Shown: positions 45,213 to 51,857 of the stretch, in pieces
Layout: each line of letters begins with the position of its first letter
How positions within the stretch are numbered: the first letter of the stretch is position 1
DNA from: Oscillospiraceae bacterium
Lineage (GTDB): Bacteria; Bacillota; Clostridia; UMGS1810
Assembly (NCBI GenBank): GCA_015068825.1
Contig: SVJU01000012.1
Coordinates: forward strand, 1-61,340
DNA length: 61,340 nt
Reading direction: 5' to 3'
Notes under the pieces: generated by a model
What the model saw: only the letters and a program-made list of their open reading frames with translations
Told to the model about the DNA's origin: nothing
The model's database searches: none
Made by a program: the position numbers and the translations under genes

Positions 45213-46247
45213 ATGATAATAGAAAACATTAAAAAACTGTCAGAAATATGTGCAGTTTCCGGTAATGAAAAAAAAGCTTCGCAAGAAGTTTTTAAAATGT
45301 TTGAAAAATACTGTGACAATGTATATACCGATGCTTTAGGAAGTGTTATCGGTGTAAAAAAAGGATTGAACTCCAATAGTAAGGTTATGATTGAAGCTCA
45401 TATTGATGAAATTGGTATGATGGTTACAAAGATAACTGATGAAGGCTTTATAAAGTTTACAAATATTGGCGGAATAGACACAAGAATTCTTCCGGGAAAT
45501 GAAGTGATAGTTCACTCAAAAGAAGAACTTTTTGGAGTTGTGGGAGCAATTGCACCGCATCTTTTGAGTGTAGATGATTTAAATAAACCTGTTCCAAAAG
45601 ACAAGCTTTTTATTGATGTCGGTTTAGATGCCGATGAAGCAAAAGAAAAAGTTTCGGTAGGGGATTTAATTACTTTTAAATCAGAAACAACCGTGCTTAA
45701 TAAAAAATATATTGCTGCAAAAAGTCAGGATGACAGAGCAAGTATCTGTGCTATTTTAGAGGTTCTTGAAAATCTTAAAGATAAAAAGCTTCCGTTTGAT
45801 TTGTATGTTGTAGGCGCAGTTCAGGAAGAAGTTGGATTAAGAGGAAGTGCAACTGTTACTTATGCAATAGACCCCGATATTGCAATTGCAATAGATGTTT
45901 GTCATGGCGATACTCCTGATGCATCAGATTCTACCTTTAAGCTTGGTTCTGGATGTGTTCTGGAGGTTGGCCCAAATATTTCTAAAAAGCTTTCAAATCA
46001 TATTATAAAAGTTATGGATGAAAATAAAATAAAATATTCTGTTGAAGCTTGTGGCGGAAATACAGGAACAGATGCGTGGGCAATGCAGATTGCAAAAAAC
46101 GGAGTTCCTACTGCACTTTTTTCAATACCATTAAGATATATGCATACACAGTATGAGGTATCAAGCGTTGAAGATATAAATTCAACCTCAAATGCAATAT
46201 GTGCATTTTTAACTTCATTTGAAAGTGTAGGTGATATATTTTGCTAA
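45213..46247 (+). CDS. M42 family metallo-aminopeptidase, paralogue 1
   Basis: 344 residues. M42 metal ligands and catalytic residues: EAHIDEIGMM (His), SQDDRAS (bridging Asp), QEEVGLRGS (general base Glu), AIDVCHGD (Asp), and RYMHTQYE (His). M42 enzymes assemble into dodecameric TET particles that trim peptides. ATG follows AGGAATAAT, five bases after murD. The first of three tandem relatives. Confidence 0.93.
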   Translation: MIIENIKKLSEICAVSGNEKKASQEVFKMFEKYCDNVYTDALGSVIGVKKGLNSNSKVMIEAHIDEIGMMVTKITDEGFIKFTNIGGIDTRILPGNEVIVHSKEELFGVVGAIAPHLLSVDDLNKPVPKDKLFIDVGLDADEAKEKVSVGDLITFKSETTVLNKKYIAAKSQDDRASICAILEVLENLKDKKLPFDLYVVGAVQEEVGLRGSATVTYAIDPDIAIAIDVCHGDTPDASDSTFKLGSGCVLEVGPNISKKLSNHIIKVMDENKIKYSVEACGGNTGTDAWAMQIAKNGVPTALFSIPLRYMHTQYEVSSVEDINSTSNAICAFLTSFESVGDIFC

Positions 46248-47281
46248 AAACTTTAACTGAATTTAATGCTGTGTCGGGCGATGAAGATAATTTAAGAAAT
46301 TTTTTAGTAAATGAGATAAAACCGTATGCAGATGATATAAAAGTTGATATAACAGGCAATATTATTGCATTTAAAAAAGGAAAAAAATCTGATGGAAGTG
46401 TTAATGTTGTAGCAGCGCATATGGACGAAGTTGGTTTTATTATAACCAAAATCGAAGAAAACGGATTTTTGCGCTTTGAAGAAGTGGGGGGTATAAGCGA
46501 TGCAATACTTCTTACGCAAAAGGTTGAAATAGGTGATAAAAGAGTAAGCGGAATTTTAGGCGTAAAAGCTGTTCACCTTCAGTCTAAAGACGAAAGACAA
46601 AATCTTATCAAAATGAAAAATATGTATATCGACATTGGCGCAAACTCAAAAGAAGAAGCTGAAAAAAAGGTTAAAATAGGCGACTATGTTGCATTTGCAT
46701 CACGATATACAGAGTTTGGAAATGATAAAATAAAAGCAAAAGCACTTGATGACAGAGTTGGTGTGTATGCAATTTTAAACTTAATAAAAGAAGAATATGA
46801 ATCAGATATTTATTTTTGTTTTACAACGCAGGAGGAAACAGGTCTTAGAGGCGCAAAAATACTATCTCACCGAATAAATGCCGATACCTGTCTTATATTG
46901 GAGGGTACAAATGCAGCCGATGTAGAAGGCGTTAAAGAGCACGAAAGAGTTACTTGTCTTGGTGATGGCCCTGCATTATCTGTTATGGACAGAGCATCAA
47001 TTTCAAACATAAAGTACAATGATTTTATCAAAAAACAAGCCGATGAAAACAAATTAAAATATCAGCTTAAAAAGACACTTAATGGCGGAAATGATGCAGG
47101 CAGTATGGCGTATGGTGCAAATGGGTGTATGACTGCAGTTTTGTCACTTCCTACACGATATCTTCATTCACCAATAAGTGTTGCGCAAAAAAGTGATATC
47201 GACGATTTAATAAAACTTTCAGAGTGTGTGCTTAAAAACATTCACAAATTATGCCCTGTAAGAAAAGAGGTTATAAAATAA
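46241..47281 (+). CDS. M42 family metallo-aminopeptidase, paralogue 2
   Basis: 346 residues. AAHMDEVGFIIT, ALDDRVGVYAIL, QEETGLRGAK, ILEGTNAADVEGV and RYLHSP. The fourth metal-site segment has Glu (ILEGT) where paralogues 1 and 3 have Asp. That is known in part of the M42 family, so it is a distinct subgroup, not a dead copy. The TTG start overlaps the stop of paralogue 1 by seven bases. Confidence 0.92.
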   Translation: MLKTLTEFNAVSGDEDNLRNFLVNEIKPYADDIKVDITGNIIAFKKGKKSDGSVNVVAAHMDEVGFIITKIEENGFLRFEEVGGISDAILLTQKVEIGDKRVSGILGVKAVHLQSKDERQNLIKMKNMYIDIGANSKEEAEKKVKIGDYVAFASRYTEFGNDKIKAKALDDRVGVYAILNLIKEEYESDIYFCFTTQEETGLRGAKILSHRINADTCLILEGTNAADVEGVKEHERVTCLGDGPALSVMDRASISNIKYNDFIKKQADENKLKYQLKKTLNGGNDAGSMAYGANGCMTAVLSLPTRYLHSPISVAQKSDIDDLIKLSECVLKNIHKLCPVRKEVIK

Positions 47282-48255
47282 TGCTTGATTTACAAAAACT
47301 TATAAATACTTATGGCATATCGGGTGATGAGGGCGAAATATCCGATTTAATCGCATCACTTACAAAGGATTATGCTACTGAAGTTTATAAAGATATTTTA
47401 GGAAACCTTGTTGTCCATAAAAAAGGAAACGGCAAAAAGCTTATGTTTGCCGCACATATGGACGAGATTGGTATAATGGTAACATATATAGACGATAATG
47501 GATTTATCCGTTTTGGTATGGTAGGCGGTGTTGATAAATACAACTGCCTTTATCAGCGTGTAAAATTTAAAAACGGCACAGTTGGAGTAGTTGGATACGA
47601 AGAAAAGATAAGCGATATTAAAAATATAAAGGTTTCAAATTTGTATATTGATATTGGCGCAAAAAACAGAGAGGAAGCCGAAAAAATGGTGAGTGTAGGG
47701 GATACTGCCGTTTTTCTTGGCGAATGTATTGTTCAAAACAATCGTGTAATAAGCCATGCACTTGATAACCGTATTGGCGTTTATGTTCTTATAGAAGCAA
47801 TAAAGAGAATAAAAAACAACAAAAACGATTTGTATTTTGTGTTTACCGTTCAGGAAGAGGTGGGTTTAAGAGGTGCAAAAACCTCTGCGTTTTCTATTGA
47901 ACCGGATTATGCAATTGCTGTGGATGTTACCGACACAGGTGATACCCCCGAGTGCAATGTTATGGCAGTTTCTCTTGGAAACGGTGCTGCAATAAAAATA
48001 AAAGACAGCTCTGTTTTGTGTAATAGAGAAGTTGTGGATGCGCTTAAAGAATGTGCAAATAAAAACAAAATAAAATATCAGCTTGAGGTACTTGAGGCGG
48101 GCGGTACAGATGCAGGTGCAATCCACCTTACAAAAGGCGGTATAAAAACAGGTGCAGTTTCGATTCCTGTAAGATATATCCATACCCCTTGCGAAACGGC
48201 TGATTTGTGTGATGTTGAAAACGCAATAAGCTTAATAGAAAAAATAGAGTTTTAA
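47281..48255 (+). CDS. M42 family metallo-aminopeptidase, paralogue 3
   Basis: 324 residues. AAHMDEIGIMVT, ALDNRIGVYVLI (Asn after the metal Asp), QEEVGLRGAK, AVDVTDTGDTPE, GGTDAGAIHLTKGG and RYIHTPCE. All catalytic positions are kept. ATG overlaps the TAA of paralogue 2 by one base; AGAGG lies upstream. A strong terminator follows, so murD and the three peptidases form one transcription unit. Confidence 0.93.
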   Translation: MLDLQKLINTYGISGDEGEISDLIASLTKDYATEVYKDILGNLVVHKKGNGKKLMFAAHMDEIGIMVTYIDDNGFIRFGMVGGVDKYNCLYQRVKFKNGTVGVVGYEEKISDIKNIKVSNLYIDIGAKNREEAEKMVSVGDTAVFLGECIVQNNRVISHALDNRIGVYVLIEAIKRIKNNKNDLYFVFTVQEEVGLRGAKTSAFSIEPDYAIAVDVTDTGDTPECNVMAVSLGNGAAIKIKDSSVLCNREVVDALKECANKNKIKYQLEVLEAGGTDAGAIHLTKGGIKTGAVSIPVRYIHTPCETADLCDVENAISLIEKIEF

Positions 48256-48566: not shown

Positions 48567-49007
48567 TTAAATAAATATCTGATACAGAATTTGTGATTTG
48601 TTAAATTCAGGATATGCATCTTTTACATCAGAAAACAACATGTTTTCCATGGCAGAAATATATTGCTTAACAGCTTTTATACAAAAGTCGGTATCATCTT
48701 TTGAAACTATTATTTGAGGTTTTACAAATTTTAAAACTTCTTCAGGTAAAAGATTTTTTGTGTTATGTTCAACAAAATGAGAAGACTCGTTTTTGACTGT
48801 TACATCAAACTCATAATTGTATAGTTCGTATATACCGCCATTATCACTTAATAAATAAGGTGTAATAAGAAAACTTTCGTTTGATGATTTTGTTGACAAT
48901 AGGTGTATAAAATGTTTAATGTTAGTTTGCGAAATGTATGTTCCGTTTCCTCGTTTTATATTCCCTATTTGTGCCTCAGTTTGTTTTATTATACTTTTAA
49001 TATTCAT
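48567..49007 (-). CDS. Small protein of the toxin island, possible immunity or accessory protein
   Basis: 146 residues, family not recognised. Mixed alpha/beta, soluble, acidic, no signal. Contains HFIHLLSTKSSNESFLITPYL and a C-terminal helix pair. It is the last of four small genes that run after the toxin in the same direction, with only four bases to the next gene upstream. Position suggests an immunity or orphan-immunity protein. No clear terminator follows; the hairpin at 48456-48483 lacks a T tract. Confidence 0.6.
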   Translation of the reverse strand: MNIKSIIKQTEAQIGNIKRGNGTYISQTNIKHFIHLLSTKSSNESFLITPYLLSDNGGIYELYNYEFDVTVKNESSHFVEHNTKNLLPEEVLKFVKPQIIVSKDDTDFCIKAVKQYISAMENMLFSDVKDAYPEFNKSQILYQIFI

Positions 49008-49011
49008 GTTT

Positions 49012-49311
49012 TTATTCTCCGAGAGTTTTATATTTTTCGTTTAATTCTGTAAGCATAATAAACAATTTTGTAGGATTTTGTATGTTCCAGCCCCATACAG
49101 TAAATGCATTTGCAAACGAAACGAGAAATCTTTCTTCTTTTGGTGGGAAGCCTTTTTTATCGGTCATAGTCAGCAAATTATTTAACTCTGGAATAATAAA
49201 ATCTTCTAATTGTTCTTGCGTGCTTTCACCAAGTATGTTGTTTTTTCTTTTAAATAATTCATTTTCACAAAGTATAATTACTTTTTCTAAATCTTTTTTG
49301 AAATTGTTCAT
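49012..49311 (-). CDS. Small helical protein of the toxin island
   Basis: 99 residues, mostly helical, acidic. The KKGFPPKEERFLVSFANAFTVWGW segment recalls small immunity-type proteins that carry a conserved aromatic WGW turn. Not assigned to a family. Third-from-toxin position, four bases before the next gene. No ribosome binding site stronger than AGGTAATAAA is seen before its ATG. Confidence 0.6.
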   Translation of the reverse strand: MNNFKKDLEKVIILCENELFKRKNNILGESTQEQLEDFIIPELNNLLTMTDKKGFPPKEERFLVSFANAFTVWGWNIQNPTKLFIMLTELNEKYKTLGE

Positions 49312-49355: not shown

Positions 49356-49892
49356 TTATAATGAATATTTGCGTCTTTTAACTTCGACTTCATATTCCCC
49401 AAAATTAGAAAAAGTTTCTTTAACTTCAGATATTGGAAAGACAGCATCGTAATTATCGTTATCAGATATTGTTATTACTTCTGAAAACCATACATCCCTT
49501 GAAAACATAATTGTTTTATTTACTGTTTTTATAATTATTGCTTGGTCGTACGAAAATTTATATTTGCCATTGTTTACACTTATAAAATCATTTATGATTT
49601 CTATAGTAACAATATTTTCTTCAATATCAAAATTTTTTAAAGGAGTATCGCAATAAGGCTTAAAATTTGAATTAGATTTTTTACATTCAAAAACTGCGAA
49701 TTCTTCATTTTCATCAAAAAACAAATCTTCTTTTAAAAAATTTGTAATTTCTAAAGAAATTTTATCTGTATTTATTTTTAAATTACCTCCTACTAAGTTG
49801 AAGACTTCACCACATTCGTAAGAAATGAATTTTGTGTTTTTTAAATTTTTCAATAATTCTATCATATTTTTATCTAATGTTGCGTTTGTCAT
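49356..49892 (-). CDS. Putative immunity protein, paralogue B
   Basis: 178 residues, beta-rich, acidic. It is a diverged copy of the adjacent gene at 49913-50458. Both share an SYE-x-G start, F-x-x-FKPYC, I-x-V/I-N-x-G-x-Y, AIIIxT and FSRDxWFSE-type motifs in the same order. Tandem copies of an immunity gene after a toxin are typical of polymorphic toxin loci. GAGG lies just upstream of its ATG, 20 bases after the paralogue. Confidence 0.65.
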   Translation of the reverse strand: MTNATLDKNMIELLKNLKNTKFISYECGEVFNLVGGNLKINTDKISLEITNFLKEDLFFDENEEFAVFECKKSNSNFKPYCDTPLKNFDIEENIVTIEIINDFISVNNGKYKFSYDQAIIIKTVNKTIMFSRDVWFSEVITISDNDNYDAVFPISEVKETFSNFGEYEVEVKRRKYSL

Positions 49893-49912: not shown

Positions 49913-50458
49913 TTACAATTTTTTAGTGGTTCTAATTACACTTACTTTGTTTTCACCTTCATCAGACCAATCTTCAATAACATTGTTAATCGTATAAATA
50001 TTATCAAATTCTTTATCTAAAGATATATTTATAGTTTCACTAAAAAACCAATCTCTGGAGAAAATATACTTGTGATTACATGTTTCAATAATTATTGCCA
50101 TATCAAAATCAATATCGTATTCTCCGTCATTTATAGAAATACGATCTTCTACAATATAAACTGATAATATTTTTTCGTTTATCAAATGTTTTTTGCAAGG
50201 TTCTTCGCAATATGGCTTGAAAGGTTCGTTTAAAGATTTTTTTTCACATGCAAAATATGAAATATCTTCTGTTGAATCAAAAAAAGGCAATTCTTTAACT
50301 TCATTCAAAAATTCTATTGCAAAACTGTCTAAATTTATTTGAAAATTACCATAAGCTTCGTTTTGAACCATATTTCCGTATTCATAAGAGCAAAAAACAT
50401 GCCCAACCATACTTTTTATATATTCCAACATATCATTTGAAAATTTTGCTTTAACCAT
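49913..50458 (-). CDS. Putative cognate immunity protein, paralogue A
   Basis: 181 residues, beta-rich, acidic, cytoplasmic. The conserved centre is FKPYCEEPCKKHL and IFSRDWFFSETINIS. It lies directly after the toxin gene (16-base gap, AGGAGGATATAATTA before the ATG), the place of the cognate antidote. The pairing of toxin and immunity protein is inferred from order only. Confidence 0.68.
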   Translation of the reverse strand: MVKAKFSNDMLEYIKSMVGHVFCSYEYGNMVQNEAYGNFQINLDSFAIEFLNEVKELPFFDSTEDISYFACEKKSLNEPFKPYCEEPCKKHLINEKILSVYIVEDRISINDGEYDIDFDMAIIIETCNHKYIFSRDWFFSETINISLDKEFDNIYTINNVIEDWSDEGENKVSVIRTTKKL

Positions 50459-50474
50459 ATTAATTATATCCTCC

Positions 50475-51857
50475 TTATTTAACGAAATGAATTTTTTGTT
50501 TTTTTACTCCCGAATATATTGTGATTTTTATTTCAATAGCCGGACTGTTCGGTGTAGATGTTTTTACACGATATATCACTCGGGAACCATCATCAAAAAT
50601 TGTTTGTACTCCCTTACCATTCGGTAAAGGTTTCTCAATACCACCTTGACTCAAATTTTTATAAAAATCAGCAGATGTTTTTATTGGGTCATCACTTTCA
50701 ATTACACTACAGTTTTTACCTTTTTTTCCAAAATATCCGTTTGCATTTATTGGATATTCTTTTTCCATTTTTCTAACATTATCGCTAATAGTAGAAATTT
50801 TGTTTGTATATTTAATGCTATCCGCTAAATTATCAGTTTTCTTTGCTGCATCAATTACTTCGTCAGAATATTTTAAACTGCCAATTACAGGTAGCAATGA
50901 AGCTGCATCTAAAATGGTTTGCAGAGCATGTGAAGGCGTAAGCTTAAAGTTTGTTATATCATATATTAAGTCTCTTATATCAGCAGGTAAATCAAATCCC
51001 AAAAAACCTAATGCAATTTGACCTATTGTTCCAAGTAGTGTAGCATCGTTTGAATAGTTACCTAAAACTATTTGTTTTATAGATGTCTGCAAATAATTTA
51101 GTTCTGATAATGTGTCGTTTTCTTTTTCTTCATTTGTAACATTAAATACAACATTTCCGTTATTATCTATAATTTGTATTATACAGTCACAATTGGGGTG
51201 AAACGGCGGAAGATTTATGCCGATTTCGCCTTCAGAAATGAGAAGCTTTTTGCCATCTAAATTATTGCATTCTTCACAATTGTCGCCATTTGTTTTTATT
51301 TGATAATATTTAAAGCCTTTATCCTGATAATCCCATAGTAGCATATACTGTTTCATCTGTCCAGCACTTTCGGTTAAAAAACTGTTCAATGAAGTTATCC
51401 TTTTTGTCAATATGTTTTGCATACGGGATATAACATTTTTTGTATCATTGCTTTGCAATATTTGTAAGTTTAGTTCTTTGAGTATAATATTTTTTGTGTT
51501 ATCCATAGATTTCTTTAAGTTTTCATTAAATTGTTTTACAAATATTTCGGATCTTTCTCCATATTTTGAAAGTTGTGTACGGGTAGTTAAGCTTAAATCA
51601 AATTCTTTGTAGAATTCTTCTATGAAGTTATTGATTTTTGGAACCAGTACATCATACGGAAAAATTAAATCGGTTTTTATTTTTCTTTGCAAAGATGTGT
51701 CAAGAAATTTTCTGTCTGGTATAATGATGTTGCTTTTCATTTTAGATAATATGTTTTCTGTGTTATCTAACGCAAAAACGCTGTATGTATATGCAATTTC
51801 ATCTAAAATGGATTTTTTGAAGTTTTCTGAAATTTTTTCAAATACAATATCGTTCAT
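50475..51857 (-). CDS. Polymorphic toxin with phage-head (Mu gpF/SPP1 gp7-like) N-terminal domain
   Basis: 460 residues. Residues 1-170 are helical. At about 185-228 lies the phage minor-head signature: NGDNCEECNNLDGK (C194, C197) and PPFHPNCDC (H220, C223, C225), as in Mu gpF and SPP1 gp7. Residues about 275-340 form a hydrophobic pre-toxin segment (LTPSHALQTILDAASLLPVIGSL). The last about 75 residues (from SVIESDDPIKT) have a small toxin-domain look with GKGVQTIFDDGSRVIYR and end QKIHFVK. I do not assign the activity; a small RNase-type fold is my guess. No signal peptide, LXG or other secretion tag. AAAGGATG precedes the ATG. Confidence 0.75.
   Translation of the reverse strand: MNDIVFEKISENFKKSILDEIAYTYSVFALDNTENILSKMKSNIIIPDRKFLDTSLQRKIKTDLIFPYDVLVPKINNFIEEFYKEFDLSLTTRTQLSKYGERSEIFVKQFNENLKKSMDNTKNIILKELNLQILQSNDTKNVISRMQNILTKRITSLNSFLTESAGQMKQYMLLWDYQDKGFKYYQIKTNGDNCEECNNLDGKKLLISEGEIGINLPPFHPNCDCIIQIIDNNGNVVFNVTNEEKENDTLSELNYLQTSIKQIVLGNYSNDATLLGTIGQIALGFLGFDLPADIRDLIYDITNFKLTPSHALQTILDAASLLPVIGSLKYSDEVIDAAKKTDNLADSIKYTNKISTISDNVRKMEKEYPINANGYFGKKGKNCSVIESDDPIKTSADFYKNLSQGGIEKPLPNGKGVQTIFDDGSRVIYRVKTSTPNSPAIEIKITIYSGVKKQKIHFVK

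Follow-up and report, generated by a model that had tools for sequence, protein, structure and literature searches.

The MuF gene and its surroundings

We analyzed a stretch of 61,340 nucleotides from the genome of an Oscillospiraceae bacterium (genome G000, contig SVJU01000012.1), hereafter referred to as the window, in which a gene encoding a protein with a phage minor-head (MuF) domain is located outside any prophage. This protein is composed of an N-terminal helical domain, the MuF/gp7 domain with its Cys/His signature, a hydrophobic pre-toxin segment, and a variable C-terminal tip, and its gene is followed by a run of small genes that includes two predicted immunity genes (Table 1). A preliminary description of this DNA had proposed that a polymorphic toxin is carried here on a head-protein domain of the Mu gpF/SPP1 gp7 kind. 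The open reading frame (ORF) and the five signature residues that it listed (C194, C197, H220, C223, and C225) were exact, and the domain was recovered far above chance. The NCBIfam profile TIGR01641 (SPP1 gp7) matched residues 132-226 above its cut-off (E 6.8e-11), and the PHROG_115 minor head protein matched at 1.7e-11, while Pfam PF04233 gave 4.8e-6 with a score slightly below the gathering threshold. In an AlphaFold model built from a two-row alignment, the mean predicted local distance difference test (pLDDT) score was 50.6, with most of the N-terminal and MuF domains at 65-82, and the model was fair only in much of residues 1-240. The best viral matches of this model in Foldseek were mainly phage minor capsid proteins.

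The surroundings of the gene also agreed with the preliminary description. No portal, terminase, capsid, or other phage gene was seen on inspection by eye of the ORFs of the window, and the neighbors, also named by eye, belong to the ordinary chromosome: ruvC-ruvA-ruvB, three M42-type peptidases, ypeB/sleB-like genes, and lon. Likewise, family profile searches gave no match to an LXG or Rhs part in the protein, and no signal peptide was seen by eye.

The short C-terminal domain of the preliminary description does exist as a variable domain, but it spans about 105 residues (356-460) instead of 75, because similarity to the relative in locus L006 ends there and free-standing homologues start there. 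The tip matched no named family in Pfam, NCBIfam, or PHROGs, gave no credible match to the PDB by profile, and found no family match in a search of viral contigs; one weak plasmid match was probably due to chance. A single-sequence fold of the tip had a pLDDT of 42 and was unusable. Matches of the whole protein to head proteins in PHROGs and Pfam stop near residue 262, those to PHROG minor-head proteins being confined to residues 108-262. The tip resembles free-standing modules rather than ordinary head proteins: its homologues are separate ORFs behind a DUF4417 gene, with a small gene placed after each of them where an immunity gene would be expected (L003, L008, and L125). A homologue of the tip was also present among the matches from a phage collection, in which the MuF matches were all weak.

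The first gene behind the MuF gene has homologues beside these tip homologues in unrelated loci, with 48% identity in L003 and 20% in L008, and a further one was found by eye in L127. These pairings support the immunity-like genes of the preliminary description, the second gene being a paralogue of the first. An exchangeable tip with a paired immunity gene is an indirect pointer to a C-terminal toxin in the window protein. No signal peptide was seen by eye on the predicted immunity proteins; therefore, the target of the putative toxin is probably cytosolic.

The same gene order (DUF4417, an overlapping short tip ORF, and a likely immunity gene) is shared by L003:10274-11893, L008:933-2521, L060:7052-8639, L061:1144-2644, and L125:5827-7539. 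The tip family of the window occurs in three of these five loci, and an Ntox50 tip in L061. DUF4417 seems to be a further partner of toxins.

Table 1 Features of the MuF gene and of the small genes behind it in the window
Feature	Coordinates	Strand	Length	Evidence
Solitary MuF gene, predicted polymorphic toxin	50475..51857	(-)	460 aa	TIGR01641, PHROG_115, PF04233; homologue L006
N-terminal helical domain, residues 1-107	51537..51857	(-)		L006 identity 46%
MuF/gp7 domain, residues 108-240	51138..51536	(-)		L006 identity 52%; MuF tree
Cys/His signature C194-x2-C197 ... H220-x2-C223-x-C225	51183..51278	(-)
Pre-toxin segment, residues 241-334	50856..51137	(-)		L006 identity 65%; homologous to segments of other toxin-type ORFs
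Variable C-terminal tip, residues 356-460	50478..50792	(-)		Homologues are separate ORFs behind DUF4417 genes
Predicted cognate immunity protein	49913..50458	(-)	181 aa	16 bp behind toxin gene; no signal peptide seen
Second predicted immunity protein, paralogue	49356..49892	(-)	178 aa	42% identical to 49913-50458
Small ORF of the same run, possibly a further orphan immunity gene	49012..49311	(-)		No family match
Small ORF of the same run, possibly a further orphan immunity gene	48567..49007	(-)		No significant family match

Solitary MuF proteins and the exchange of their tips

A full-length relative of the window protein is encoded in L006, from an Oscillospiraceae metagenome-assembled genome (G391), between homoserine dehydrogenase and dus genes and with no phage genes nearby. 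The two proteins share residues 1-334, with identities of 46% over residues 1-107, 52% over the MuF domain, and 65% over the pre-toxin segment, whose existence the preliminary description had rightly claimed, against 21% over the tip. In G000 itself, contig C26 carries a second solitary MuF gene (L004:8804-11640), which is N-terminally truncated and has a different tip. This gene is followed by an orphan cassette: it starts within a near-copy of the pre-toxin segment, and its end is formed by a third tip, which is accompanied by a small ORF of its own. Another relative from the same lineage (L054) displays an Ntox50 tip. Meanwhile, a solitary MuF gene outside this lineage (L057, 3759-5828), which lies in plain chromosome, displays a TNT tip, and duplicated small genes come after it. 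The sequences thus show that solitary chromosomal MuF proteins of this lineage exchange their tips, each paired with an immunity gene; the swap most likely takes place through recombination within the pre-toxin segment.

In a tree of MuF domains, the window protein, the C26 copy, L006, G183, G022, and both copies of G379 share one side of a branch (99/98), and 23 MuFs, most of them portal-linked, are placed on the other. The solitary clade, the members of which were retrieved by similarity to the window MuF, contains no phage member. Two scans of IMG/VR returned no relatives.

The C26 gene and its cassette array lie near spoIIIA-type genes. L059 (7746-8896) has no MuF part but encodes a pre-toxin segment whose tip weakly resembles EndoU, with a possible immunity gene behind it. 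In L084 (5518-6507), a solitary MuF-like half precedes an unrelated region that, by eye, resembles a copper-amine-oxidase N-terminal domain.

SPP1-type portals and a head-tail cluster lacking MuF

The preliminary description had raised the possibility of a helper phage or capsid-like device encoded elsewhere in the genome, to be sought through SPP1-like portal genes. We found a single SPP1-type portal in G000 (L071:10583-11884), on another contig than the window and within a head-tail cluster on contig C14, so that the device is supported as far as its genes are concerned. The portal family SPP1_portal (PF05133) was present on another contig in all six genomes with solitary MuF proteins, compared to 106 of 391 genomes of the class (27%); the Fisher test for the five of these six that lie within the 391 gave p 0.0014, a value that stems from a handful of mostly incomplete drafts and carries no correction for kinship. 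The HK97-type portal PF04860 was found in only one of the six. The large terminase TerL (phrog_2) was also considered as a marker but proved uninformative on account of a high base rate (11/14 controls).

The cluster (C14:13653-24865) comprises 16 genes, named from ORF inspection and PHROGs and in some cases by position: a RinA-like gene, small and large terminase, portal, scaffold, capsid, connectors, tail, a tape measure of 391 residues, Dit, and baseplate. No integrase or replication genes were seen in it by the same means. Only 112 bp separate portal and scaffold, with no gene between them. In three of the nearest phages (Lugh, Hain-Saunders-2022a, and Fontainebleau), this slot is occupied by a minor capsid or minor head gene of 407-632 residues. 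What the C14 cluster lacks is exactly the MuF head protein, so the predicted toxin of the window may be a cargo of such particles.

A narrower portal profile (A2), which represents the C14 type of portal and was built from five of the six solitary-MuF genomes, matches 38 of the 391 genomes. A MuF gene within 5 kb was detected for 0/44 portals of the A2 family, compared to 54% of other SPP1-type portals, by a test that misses the type of minor-capsid gene kept after the portal in at least one A2 match, L107, which is an ordinary prophage.

The cluster lies beside the same yigZ-type gene in G000, in G001 of the same genus, and in G005 of another genus. Between G000 and G001, all 16 genes are orthologous and at the same site, and the ratio of nonsynonymous to synonymous substitution rates (dN/dS) is 0.06-0.3 where computable, for one genome pair and with dS near saturation. 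Hence, the cluster displays two marks of gene transfer agents (GTAs), namely phage head and tail genes unaccompanied by integrase or replication genes, and, from its shared neighborhood in the three genomes and its dN/dS, vertical inheritance under purifying selection. In another genus, three species carry a second type of MuF-less cluster, which adjoins a sigma-factor gene. Both types look like domesticated, GTA-like elements in their gene content.

MuF-less head-tail clusters with short tape measures are widespread (L071, L073-L076, L098-L106, L108-L111, and L115-L118), several of them at conserved chromosomal sites. We regard them as candidate gene transfer agents of Clostridia.

MuF-barnase genes beside lysis genes

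A shorter solitary form consists of half a MuF domain fused to a barnase-type ribonuclease (PF00545) and is followed by barstar (PF01337); it was found in about a dozen genomes of the class. In G046 and G231, the pair comes immediately after holin and amidase genes belonging to a phage-like cluster; in G024, it is found about 2.5 kb past the putative endolysin of a podovirus-like cluster. Pairs of this kind are spread across Clostridia at L085-L097 (e.g., L088:4596-5833 and L087:6721-7553).

Proposed mode of delivery and alternatives

Based on these findings, we postulate that the window MuF protein is a polymorphic toxin encoded in trans and delivered by a domesticated, GTA-like particle, a proposal that we consider evenly poised between right and wrong. 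In such a siphovirus particle, the MuF part would attach the toxin to the portal within the procapsid. The procapsid would come from the separate C14 cluster, whose own MuF gene would have been lost. Upon lysis of donor cells, particles loaded with the toxin, either alongside DNA or in its place, would be released and enter recipients, of which kin with the cytosolic immunity proteins (49913-50458 and 49356-49892) would survive and non-kin would be poisoned. More tentatively, and with somewhat less than an even chance, GTA-like particles of gut Clostridia in general may serve as toxin vehicles that have lost the MuF gene in cis and are loaded with one of several MuF toxins in trans, their release combining gene transfer with the killing of non-kin. 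If true, this would be a capsid-based counterpart of secretion-system effectors, and the MuF toxin family would gain a form owned by the host. It would also explain how a carrier benefits from a domesticated phage, i.e., by killing non-kin while spreading its genes, and it predicts that particles from cultured gut Clostridia will contain a toxin whose gene is distant from those of the capsid.

Several observations weigh against trans-delivery by such particles. Neither a holin nor an endolysin gene was seen in the C14 cluster of G000, and no solitary MuF gene was found in G001 and G005, which have the cluster. The A2 portal family is not enriched in the MuF-barnase genomes (2/13, p 0.37). To these are added the small sample behind the portal co-occurrence, the origin of the A2 profile, the prophage in L107, the retrieval of the solitary clade by similarity, and the tip, for which neither a usable fold nor a credible PDB match was obtained.

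The leading alternative, which we judge unlikely, is that the window gene is a relic of the MuF toxin of a former prophage, kept mainly for immunity against phage-borne MuF toxins, its MuF part being defunct. The absence of remaining phage genes around it, the orphan cassettes, and the doubled immunity genes fit such a reservoir, and so do the C26 copy without N-terminus and the G022 copy, which look truncated or broken and also count against our proposal. However, intact full-length genes are present in four genomes (G000, L006, G183, and G379), and the N-terminal and MuF domains are conserved from residue 1 (46-52% identity between the window and L006) in a clade without phage member. A relic is not expected to retain its head-docking part, which disfavors this explanation.

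It is rather improbable that the toxin is a satellite-like hitchhiker that relies in trans on the packaging of active phages, infecting or resident, whose portals are of the SPP1 type. Such portals are common in the class, as the 106 of 391 genomes show, and SPP1 gp7 binds the portal (as summarized in PMC5576092). Yet phages of this sort already have a MuF gene of their own beside the portal, the product of which would compete, and the portal of G000 belongs to a cluster without integrase or MuF.

We give the least weight to an intracellular role, in which a toxin-antitoxin or abortive-infection device would sense the portal or procapsid of an incoming phage through its MuF part and free the toxin. 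Portals could conceivably be recognized in this manner, no secretion signal was seen, the immunity proteins look cytosolic, and a solitary chromosomal position resembles that of defense genes; but exported polymorphic toxins typically show such tip exchange and orphan cassettes, and MuF-barnase genes stand behind the lysis genes of phage-like clusters. Other delivery routes were rejected: the six genomes gave no EssC above cut-off (the matches, far below it, had the size and score of FtsK/SpoIIIE-like proteins), there was no LXG/WXG match indicative of type VII secretion, and the contractile sheath PF04984 was found in 0/6 genomes.

Relation to known systems

CdiA-CT, Rhs, and LXG toxins possess a constant N-terminus, a pre-toxin junction, and an exchangeable tip with its immunity gene, accompanied by orphan cassettes. 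The window MuF protein shares all of these traits with them but differs in the delivery part, having no LXG or Rhs part. PBSX of Bacillus subtilis is a domesticated siphovirus-like particle that kills non-kin by a tailocin-like action, and, to our knowledge, no trans-encoded MuF toxin is associated with it. PBSX is also cited in the study of the Faecalibacterium GTA, FpGTA (PMC12946183), which demonstrated GTA-like packaging experimentally in related gut families. The C14 cluster resembles FpGTA, for which particles were demonstrated, in being a set of domesticated head and tail genes of gut Clostridia that lacks replication functions. The two differ in that FpGTA is podovirus-like, while the cluster of G000 belongs to a siphovirus type with a short tail. 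The FpGTA study mentions neither MuF nor toxins (PMC12946183), and no paper combining "MuF" and "gene transfer agent" was found in the literature searched.

MuF toxins have been described as exclusively encoded by phages and prophages, with 96% of bacterial MuF genes tied to prophages or their remnants (Jamet et al. 2017, PMC5576092). The window protein resembles these toxins of temperate phages in its MuF domain, its variable, putatively toxic C-terminal region, the small immunity-type ORF directly downstream, and its Firmicutes host. In contrast, the described toxins adjoin portal or terminase genes, whereas the window gene is solitary among housekeeping genes, with orphan cassettes, and no phage member was found in its clade. 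Hence, we consider it a variant of the MuF toxins and not a prophage MuF toxin. Since the family was already described in 2017 (PMC5576092), what is novel here is the trans, non-prophage arrangement. Elsewhere in the window, the M42-type aminopeptidase paralogues at 45213-48255 (named by eye) form a tandem of three.
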